From Candidatus Woesearchaeota archaeon (GTDB lineage Archaea > Nanobdellota > Nanobdellia > SCGC-AAA011-G17 > GW2011-AR18), in NCBI GenBank assembly GCA_018302105.1, contig JAGWAD010000006.1:1-52451 (forward strand): a stretch of 52,451 nt of DNA. Direction: 5' to 3'. Of this stretch, positions 46,575 through 50,619 are shown in pieces. The notes beneath the pieces were generated by a model. It was given only the letters and a program-made list of their open reading frames with translations. It searched no databases and was not told where the DNA came from. Numbering within the stretch: position 1 is the first letter of the stretch; each line of letters begins with the position of its first letter. A program made the translations under genes and the position numbers.

Positions 46575-46704
46575 TCCCCCCGGCCGGATTTGAACCGACA
46601 GCCTTCCGGGATCAGCTATCTGTTTTTCATATCTAGCTATTTTGCTTAAGATCAAACAGTGACTTTATCTACAGCCAGATGCTCCGCCATTGAGCTACAG
46701 GGGG
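46575..46704 (-). tRNA. tRNA-Tyr (GTA) with a 58-nt intron
   Basis: Exon 1 (46669-46704) has acceptor CCCCCTG, D arm GCTC/GAGC and anticodon arm 5' half TCTGG with loop CTGTAG (anticodon GTA). Exon 2 (46575-46610) has CCGGA, T arm GTCGG/CCGGC with TTCAAAT, and acceptor CGGGGGG plus discriminator A. The intron (about 46611-46668) sits directly after position 37, the canonical archaeal site cut by the splicing endonuclease; the exact boundary is inferred by pairing. Confidence 0.9.
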
Positions 46705-47512: not shown

Positions 47513-47740
47513 TTAGTTTCCATCAGAAGAAATTAATTTCAGTTGTCGACAAATTGTCGATAGCTCAATTGTACTAAAATATCTATCTTTTCTTTTGAAA
47601 AAATTAGAAAGTTCTGCAATAGTTATAACGTTGGTATATATTGTATTGGATTCATTTTCAATTATATTTCTCACCAATTCACCAGGTTTACTGCCATCAA
47701 AATATTCAACCCATGCTGAAGCATCAACAATGAAATTCAT
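47513..47740 (-). pseudogene. vapC: Truncated VapC PIN-domain toxin
   Basis: The N-terminal PIN half is present: FIVDASAWVEYFDGSKPGEL with the first Asp, and TIAELSNFFKRKD with the conserved Glu. The frame stops after 75 residues, whereas VapC proteins have about 130; the second half with the remaining catalytic Asp residues is not seen in any frame in the 70 nt beyond. I infer an inactive remnant. It overlaps the VapB-like antitoxin by 4 nt. Confidence 0.7.
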
Positions 47741-47943
47741 TTTTTCTCCAATTGTCCTTTAAGTTTATCTTCTTTTGTAAATGTGCCAATTCCTTTAAAC
47801 ATCCCAAACCTGGATTTTTTGATTTTCTTAATATCAATTTTAACTGCTTGGTCTTCAGTTAGTCCTTCATGTTCAACTATTGCTTTTAGTATAGTAACTA
47901 TAAGTGAACCCCCTATTTTTCTTGTTTTAACAATTGCTTCCAT
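47737..47943 (-). CDS. vapB: AbrB/VapB-type antitoxin
   Basis: MEAIVKTRKIGGSLIVTILK, EGLTEDQAVKIDIKKIKKS and the basic swapped-hairpin pattern match AbrB/MazE-like VapB proteins; the usual Pro of VTIPK is Leu here. 68 residues. Located immediately upstream of the truncated toxin, 4-nt overlap. It may still repress its own promoter. Confidence 0.75.
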   Translation of the reverse strand: MEAIVKTRKIGGSLIVTILKAIVEHEGLTEDQAVKIDIKKIKKSRFGMFKGIGTFTKEDKLKGQLEKK

Positions 47944-48506: not shown

Positions 48507-48526
48507 ATTTAAAATTACTTATTTAG

Positions 48527-48645
48527 GATTCTCTTCAAACAACGGCTGACGATGTAGAAAATATTTTTTTAACAAAAATATATCGAAGAGCCAGACCATG
48601 AAAATAACATCGTAAAAATCTATCAACCGAAGATTAAAGAGAATC
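48527..48645. mobile_element. MITE-like insertion with 9-bp target duplication
   Basis: Ends are perfect 9-bp inverted repeats GATTCTCTT (48527-48535) and AAGAGAATC (48637-48645), and they are bounded by the direct repeat CTTATTTAG at 48518-48526 and 48646-48654, exactly as a target duplication should be. The 119-bp interior has no ORF but has internal inverted pairs (ACGATGT/ACATCGT; ATATTTTT/AAAAATAT). It also folds as RNA. No source transposase is in the window. Confidence 0.6.
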
Positions 48646-48701
48646 CTTATTTAGTGATCTGTAAAGTAAACGTCTGGTATAATATCGGATTCCTGTTAAA
48701 T

Positions 48702-48780
48702 GCCCCGACGACTGAAAGGAGGAGAGCGCAGCGGGGCAAGGAGCGCAGGCGAAGCCGAGCACCGTAGAGTTTCCGAGGGC
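48702..48780. other. GC-rich structured segment
   Basis: Composition is sharply GC-rich relative to the surroundings. Pairs visible: GCCCCG (48702-48707) with CGGGGC (48732-48737), and the tight GGCGAAGCC hairpin (48748-48756). It precedes the TATA box at 48789. It could be a small structured RNA or an attachment/end structure of the inverted-repeat unit. It matches neither SRP RNA nor RNase P signatures that I know. Confidence 0.4.
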
Positions 48781-48818
48781 ACAAAAAGTTTATAAACTAT
48801 TAGGTGGTAACTACTATT

Positions 48819-49247
48819 ATGTCAATTAAATATGCTCAACCAGAATTAAGGAATTTTGGACAAGATTATAGAGGAAGAACTCGTTTTTTAACAAAACTGG
48901 AAGAATGGAAAGCAAAATATGCGGGACTATTTGTAATGTGTGCTCTTGATGAAGTAATTAGAGTTTATGCTTTAAGTGATGCAAAGAGTCATGGTCAAGT
49001 ATGCGGAGAGTGTGAAACTCAGGGACGAGTTCTTGGTGGTGGGAGCATTTCATTAGATGATAAAATGAGGCCTGTTAGTCTTAGTAGCAGGAGTATGGAT
49101 TTCGGAAGTTTACCTAATAATGTATTAGAAGAATACTTTGAATCTTTTGGTTATACTGTGAAAGCTGGAATGTTTGATGAGGGAGAAACAAAAGGAATTC
49201 AGGATTCTACGCGTGAATATTTTAAAAAACATGGTATTGAAATTTGA
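48819..49247 (+). CDS. Orphan hypothetical protein inside the inverted-repeat unit
   Basis: TATA (TTTATAAAC, 48789-48797) lies 26 nt before this ATG, so MSIKYAQPELRNFGQDYRGR is preferred to a GTG at 48804. 142 residues; includes VCGECETQGRVLGGGSISLD and SSRSMDFGSLPNNVLEEYF. The LGGG-x-I-S then S-x-D-F-G pattern recalls PHPT/Janus-like small proteins only weakly. Codon use is less AT-rich than neighbours. Function unknown. Confidence 0.7.
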   Translation: MSIKYAQPELRNFGQDYRGRTRFLTKLEEWKAKYAGLFVMCALDEVIRVYALSDAKSHGQVCGECETQGRVLGGGSISLDDKMRPVSLSSRSMDFGSLPNNVLEEYFESFGYTVKAGMFDEGETKGIQDSTREYFKKHGIEI

Positions 49248-49517
49248 TTAGTATTTGTGCCCGAGGGAATTAGACCTAACAACTATTAAGCGAGATAAAT
49301 ATTCGCTTTATGGGAGAATTTTGGATAAAAAGCGAGATTTTACATACTTCTCCAATAATCATATATTGTATGGCAGATGAGCACAAAAGTTATTTACCAG
49401 AAGAACAATATAGGCTGATTGTCAAGAAATCTTAATTTTTTTGTTCAAAATTCCAGACGTTTACTTTACAGCTTATTATTTAGCTAAATTTATATATTAA
49501 GAGAAATAATAATTTAC

Positions 49518-50042: not shown

Positions 50043-50619
50043 ATGATTAACTTATATTTATTGAGACATGGCAAAAGTATATTTAATGAAAAGAAACTTA
50101 TTCAGGGACAGAAAGATTTTGCTGAGAATGGATTGTCAAAAAGCGGAATTAAACAAATTAGAGAAATATCAAAACATTTGGCAAAATTAGAAATTAATAA
50201 ATAAAGTATTTTCCAGCGACTTGCAAAGATGCAGGGAAGCTGCAGACATAGTTTATAAGAAAATAGAAATAGAAATATCATTTGTTAAAGAATTAAGAGA
50301 ACAAAACTGCGGTGATTGAGAGGGGATGAAATCTTCAGAAGTATCTGAAAGTGAAAAAGAAATTATACCTCCTAATGGCGAATCTATGCAGGATGTTGAA
50401 AAAAGAGTTATTCCATTCATTAAAAAAATATTAAAAAATGATAACAATATATTAATTATAACACATGCTGCTGTAATTCAGAATATTGTAGGATATTTTC
50501 TCAATATTCCATACGATTCAAGATTTAAAATTAAATTAAGAGGTGGTTCTTTATCGCACATAACAATTGATGATTCTAAAATTAAAATAGTAATGTTAGG
50601 CCATGTTAATAGAATTTAA
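50043..50619 (+). pseudogene. Phosphoglycerate mutase-family gene, broken twice
   Basis: The start INLYLLRHGKSIFNEKKLIQ is the phosphohistidine RHG motif of histidine phosphatases/PGM. A frameshift occurs near 50200-50206; VFSSDLQRCREAADIV follows in another frame. Then a TGA at 50316-50318 falls where the conserved Trp of the GDWEG motif belongs (NCGD-TGA-EGMKS). The rest (EIIPPNGESMQDVEKRV, ITHAAVIQNIVGYFLN) is intact. Two independent lesions make a dead gene likely. Confidence 0.8.

Follow-up and report, generated by a model that had tools for sequence, protein, structure and literature searches.

Near the end of the window (the whole stretch of 52,451 nt analysed here, from a Candidatus Woesearchaeota archaeon) lies a compact unit that raises the question of what kind of genetic element closes itself with perfect inverted ends around a single gene. 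The original prediction, made from the sequence alone, outlined it as 813 bp and wavered between an unknown small mobile unit and an RNA whose long closing stem would host a gene. Comparison with 378 genomes of the same class makes it very probable that the unit is a non-autonomous remnant, of the mobile-insertion-cassette type, of a transposon-borne archaeal integron-like system.

The predicted 19-bp ends, CTGTAAAGTAAACGTCTGG, are exact at both places (48659-48677 on the forward strand, 49453-49471 on the reverse), two matches having been found where chance at up to three mismatches leads one to expect 0.01. The predicted length was real as far as it went and falls short of the true extent by 4 bp on each side: the unit continues beyond the 19-bp ends as TGAT... 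and TAAG... (the family consensus is TGAG), and directly outside both stands an identical 8-mer, TTATTTAG. Random 8-mers of the window agree at this spacing with a frequency of 0.00012. Exact ends with the same 8-mer outside both thus define a unit of 821 bp (48655-49475) with TGAKCTGTAAAGTAAACGTCTGG-type inverted terminal repeats and an 8-bp target duplication. These are the marks of a DDE transposon or a mobile insertion cassette; the presence of a passenger gene without a transposase between the ends is that of a mobile insertion cassette, and the 142-aa open reading frame sets the unit apart from MITEs. A MITE does lie next to it (window 48519-48654). Its duplication, TTATTTA(G), is identical to the 8-mer duplicated around the unit, and because the MITE also stops at the left TTATTTAG, this 8-mer occurs three times in succession. 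The MITE is multi-copy, with six further full or partial matches at 95-100% identity across about 270 kb of its genome. The end CTGTAAAGTAAACGTCTGG is absent elsewhere in the window and in the rest of the 1.15-Mb genome. The 821-bp unit is therefore single-copy, and the case for its own mobility rests on its duplication and on its relatives.

Those relatives are numerous. The 19-bp end occurs at three or fewer mismatches, in recurring variants, in 107 of the 378 same-class genomes (part of the three-mismatch matches being expected by chance), with exact copies in six genomes besides that of the window; viral contigs contain no match to it. The end common to the relatives' loci is TGAGCTGTWAAGTWARCGTCWGG. 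Perfect 8-bp duplications surround 11 of 15 distinct paired elements, that is, the window's unit and 10 relatives, and two more elements have duplications with one mismatch. Autonomous, transposase-bearing elements with the same ends occur at L075, L077, L080, L102, L113 and L117. The transposase of the complete relatives has 288 aa and a DDE_Tnp_IS240 domain (46 bits, cut-off 27); at 82 bits it stays below the cut-off of 125 of the curated NCBIfam IS6 model, and for this reason we call it "IS6-like." The right 67-70 bp of the window's unit show 91-92% identity to the transposase-side ends of L080, L082 and L083. With a target duplication, the same ends around other cargo elsewhere, and autonomous relatives, the prediction of a small mobile unit is borne out. 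The refuting condition attached to it, ends that are not conserved beside homologous proteins, is the wrong criterion for such a unit: the ends are conserved in other genomes around changing passengers (trypsin-like protease, SET domain, serine hydrolase, glyoxalase, nucleotide-metabolism enzymes and others), as is expected of a cassette carrier.

A search of the window's own genome found no intact transposase of this end family, the closest match being truncated and the other six partial or distant. The closest match belongs to a decayed relative, L141 (contig G000:C27, from 1408), which retains one end and a truncated IS6-like transposase with 73% identity over 95 aa; two genes that by eye resemble a nucleotidyltransferase/HEPN pair follow it. 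Another element with the same ends, L076 (genome G005), spans 3.7 kb, has the perfect duplication ATTAAAAG and no transposase, and carries a deaminase, a Ham1-like protein and other apparent nucleotide-metabolism genes.

What lies between the ends is where the integron-like character appears. Read from the right, the unit consists of an IS6-like end, a recombinase stub, an attI-like site, a cassette, a GC-rich block, and a collapsed attC at the left end (Table 1).

Table 1. Features of the 821-bp unit, in window positions from left to right.
Feature	Positions	Strand	Basis or remark
Left target-site duplication TTATTTAG	48647..48654	+	Same as 49476-49483
Left terminal inverted repeat TGATCTGTAAAGTAAACGTCTGG	48655..48677	+	Exact 19-bp pair; end family across the class
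Collapsed attC TTTAAC-A-GGAATCC-GAT-ATTATAC, abutting left end	48677..48700	-	Comparison with L191/L180/L186/L097 attC
GC-rich pre-attC segment of cassette	48701..48769	-	Alignment to L191 first cassette
Cassette-end inverted repeat, left arm	48770..48785	+	81% complementary to 49254-49269
TATA-box-like GTTTATAAACT	48788..48798	+	About 27 nt before start codon; sequence
Passenger gene, 142 aa	48819..49247	+	ATG start; C-terminal half like Janus/Ocnus (PHPT)
Cassette-end inverted repeat, right arm	49254..49269	-	8 nt from attI crossover GTT
attI-like site AAATCTCGC...CGAATATTTATCTCGCTTAATAGTTGTT	49278..49342	-	GTT at 49278-49280; conservation ends there
Recombinase 5' stub, 17 codons, MADEHKSYLPEEQYRLI, then fused to transposon end	49370..49420	+	N-terminus match; spacing
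Right end of IS6-like element, including terminal repeat 49453-49475	49404..49475	-	Identity to L080, L082, L083
Right target-site duplication TTATTTAG	49476..49483	+	Same as 48647-48654

The attI-like block, about 65 bp between the right end and the passenger gene, is present in 13 of the 378 class genomes, with 0 control matches. It is conserved up to ...TTAATAGTTGTT, after which the loci diverge, mostly in the shape A[TG]NNNCAAT. At five loci, each in a different genome (L176, L177, L182, L185 and L186), a tyrosine recombinase gene lies beside the block and reads away from it. The recombinase has 269 aa, with 82-86% identity to the L185 copy; the L177 copy is interrupted. The distance from its ATG to the GTT is 91-93 nt in the four of these loci where the start can be read directly, and the same spacing is deduced for L182 from a full-length tblastn match. 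The window has an ATG at a distance of 92 nt from its GTT, and the reading frame that starts there, MADEHKSYLPEEQYRLI, resembles the recombinase N-termini MTDESKSYSPEEQYGLI, MADESKSYSTEERYALI and MADIGKNYSPEERYKLI; the unit thus retains attI together with a recombinase stub. (The block also occurs with a single cassette and no adjoining recombinase at L189 5043 / L138 771 in genome G230, next to a gene that by eye looks like a sugar-nucleotide epimerase.) A simpler account would make the unit a plain mobile insertion cassette, whose IS6-like ends caught a chromosomal gene by accident; no integron-like step would be involved, and the stub and the attI-like block would be no more than parts of the transposon. 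Most same-end relatives (e.g. L077, L080, L083) do carry passengers without a recognised attI. Against this account stand the attI block itself, with a recombinase start at the right distance, and the fact that conservation ends at the GTT, as it would at a recombination junction.

The recombinase is an unusual one for an integron. It scores 214/220 bits as archaeal XerA and 190-193/265 bits with the IntI model TIGR02249, and in alignment to VchIntIA (2a3v) it is missing about residues 176-238, which we take to be the location of the IntI-specific domain. Relatives have an attI beside an integrase gene, with a sequence junction at GTT, but that integrase is without the IntI-specific domain, and the window's unit has just the 17-codon stub; because of the recombinase we name the system "integron-like." A search for the IntI family over the class matched most genomes by way of their Xer proteins, none above the cut-off, so integrons cannot be located here by an IntI search alone.

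The whole arrangement is preserved in a 19.2-kb element of genome G110, which runs end, transposase, recombinase, attI, several genes interspersed with seven attC-type sites in one orientation, end. Its ends lie at G110:C43:17089 (flank CTAATAAG) and 36257 (flank CTGATAAG), with a duplication matching at 7 of 8 positions, and L176, on a shorter contig, repeats this order from the end through transposase and recombinase to attI. Eleven attC sites of 84-119 nt align with an invariant TAAC...GTTA and an inner stem of 12 bp, which is offset from it by 1 nt at one flank and by about 2-4 nt at the opposite one; compensatory double changes occur in 9 of 16 pairs. The relatives thus show the R''-L''...L'-R' pairing and single-orientation arrays of integrons, with an R' that is often GTTATRC, off the strict GTTRRRY. 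A covariance model of these sites finds attC-type sites in 24 of the 103 genomes of the order, with 14 in G029 and 12 in G025. At L204, L205, L206 and L210 a more distant XerA-like recombinase is divergent from attC-type sites, which is the layout of an integron; at L207 the distance and orientation of the recombinase do not fit that layout. Long arrays, L208 and L209 (G029:C22 and C8), have 15 or more attC-type sites, all in one orientation, along about 24 kb on two contigs, and no recombinase within the examined stretches. In the larger relatives, then, an archaeal transposon bears an entire integron-like system whose recombinase is unusual. Since the window's unit has a right end of a different subtype from that of the G110 element, it is a mosaic rather than a simple deletion of that element.

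The cassette of the window can be read against these intact ones. The nested inner pair noticed around the gene, GGGCACAAA/TTTGTGCCC, proves to be part of a 16-nt pair, 81% complementary, that bounds the cassette and recurs in related cassettes: in L176, L191, L181, L193 and others, the inner pair is likewise followed by a CT-rich step and a GC-rich block. With free placement the window's inner repeat is not significant alone (p = 0.31); we accept it because the 81% pair sits at +8 and ahead of a CT-rich step, just where other cassettes have theirs. Taken together with the collapsed R''/L'' arm, the GC-rich block aligns to the segment preceding attC in the first cassette of L191 with a score of 71, reached by 0 of 2000 shuffles (maximum 44); among the loci compared outside the set of cassette loci it has no short-word BLAST match. 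The attC itself has lost its hairpin, and A has replaced G at its crossover. Neither an intact palindrome (p = 0.68) nor a match to the attC model is found there, so the unit has no intact attC of the kind integrons require; the collapse explains why the palindrome test is not significant. So degenerate an attC is in keeping with accidental capture of a chromosomal gene by IS6-like ends. The agreement of inner repeat, CT-rich step and GC-rich pre-attC block with other cassettes is not, and we regard accidental capture as unlikely.

Two further readings fare worse. Transposon, integron and gene fragments might have been joined by chance, as a non-mobile relic or an assembly artefact; the single copy and the decayed attC could be taken that way, as could the state of the data (all genomes compared are metagenome-type assemblies, and that of the window is in 42 contigs). 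A duplication that is perfect exactly at both ends, an intact open reading frame, and an order of modules that agrees with intact relatives make this very improbable. Least probable of all is a structured RNA whose long closing stem hosts the gene, since, although the whole unit folds better than its own shuffles (z = -3.42, 20 shuffles) with the terminal repeats closing the predicted fold, the part predicted to be structured is indeed GC-rich but folds no better than chance (z = 0.54), Rfam gives the unit no credible match and none at gathering score, unrelated cargo lies between the recurring ends with their 8-bp duplications, and the boundaries of cassette and transposon account for the inner and outer repeats, respectively; we have rejected it.

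The remnant of an integron-like transposon is thus the reading we prefer, and its history may be sketched as follows. Larger archaeal transposons with an IS6-like transposase and an integron-like platform (a XerA/IntI-like recombinase, attI, and attC cassettes) would have given rise to the unit by internal deletion and exchange of ends. Judging from the anatomy, the recombinase would earlier have captured a circular cassette, made up of the PHPT-like gene and its attC, at the GTT of attI. The copy in the window would then have lost the transposase, and the recombinase beyond its 17 codons, while keeping attI, one cassette, and a collapsed attC. As an 821-bp transposon it would have inserted into TTATTTAG, duplicating it. 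A transposase of the same end family would have moved the block as a whole in trans, to which the observed duplication and shared ends point. Now that its attC has collapsed and the recombinase is gone, the cassette is presumably locked in. In the larger relatives, the recombinase would act on attI and attC.

The gene so carried may be expressed from within the cassette. A TATA-like TTTATAAA stands about 27 nt upstream of its start, the usual spacing of archaeal promoters, and transcription would run from this promoter towards attI, as the gene is oriented. (A GTG at 48804 is a possible alternative start.) The predicted open reading frame and TATA box therefore stand, while its description as an orphan needs qualification, since the C-terminal half is Janus/PHPT-like. 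Residues 68-118 (51 residues) align to archaeal Ocnus proteins with an hhalign E of 2.8e-7, and the archaeal Ocnus family in turn to human PHPT1 structures with E = 9e-13. Like the Janus/Ocnus family (14-kDa phosphohistidine phosphatase PHPT1), the passenger has the LGGGxI...RSxxxG motif in this half; unlike members of the family, it falls under the Pfam Ocnus cut-off (E = 0.015, 15.8/23 bits), and its N-terminal half is unmatched. Peptide patterns yield no close relatives in the viral and genome collections, and an AlphaFold model from the single sequence (pLDDT 44) is too poor for use. Our best guess is that the gene encodes a predicted phosphohistidine phosphatase-like protein.

In bacteria, mobile integrons are familiar from class 1, in Tn402-like transposons, and class 2, in Tn7-like transposons. 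The archaeal elements share with them an integron platform on a DDE transposon with inverted ends, and differ in the IS6-like transposase with its N-terminal zinc-binding motif, the archaeal host, and the other type of integrase. Archaeal integrons and CALINs have been described, with six IntIs that all have the IntI-specific domain and with most arrays lacking an integrase, and archaeal attC sites have already been assayed by suicide conjugation (Ghaly et al. 2022, PMC9668308). Our elements resemble these in having attC-type cassettes in archaea, including Nanoarchaeota, and GTT insertion beside an integrase gene; here, however, the recombinase is XerA-like without the IntI-specific domain, and the platform sits inside a transposon. 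Mobile insertion cassettes (PMC3913671) likewise have a passenger gene between IS ends without a transposase, but the window's passenger lies within an attI/attC frame with a recombinase stub. As in the IS6 family, the relatives have the DDE_Tnp_IS240 domain and 8-bp duplications; a review of that family mentions a single member with a passenger gene, ISDsp3, and one clade whose long members have a zinc finger (Varani et al. 2021, PMC7986276), whereas here passengers are common, elements reach 19 kb, and the NCBIfam IS6 cut-off is missed. A review of archaeal tyrosine recombinases leaves DPANN unmentioned (PMC8371274).

Our literature search, mainly of openly accessible papers, brought up no account of archaeal integrons borne by transposons or of arrays run by XerA. 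We lean towards the view that archaea have in these relatives their first known transposon-borne (mobile) integrons, and that the integrase serving them, as well as neighbouring chromosomal arrays, is of the XerA type and lacks the IntI-specific domain. The attI of this small unit points to a recombinase that standard searches would miss by requiring that domain, and to a transposon able to carry the whole platform between genomes. If this is true, DPANN cassette arrays that resemble CALINs would be supplied with their missing integrase, and there would be a second way of recombining attC-type sites; if the system works, small DPANN-type archaea would own a gene-capture system like the mobile integrons of bacteria.

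The neighbourhood of the unit has features of its own. A phosphoglycerate-mutase-like gene (window 50044-50619) is, by eye, apparently broken by in-frame stops and a frameshift. An Rfam tRNA match extends across 130 nt (window 46575-46704), uncalled by ARAGORN, and is probably an intron-containing tRNA. A PIN-domain protein (window 47513-47943) with a MazE/AbrB-like partner upstream forms a VapBC-like toxin-antitoxin pair.
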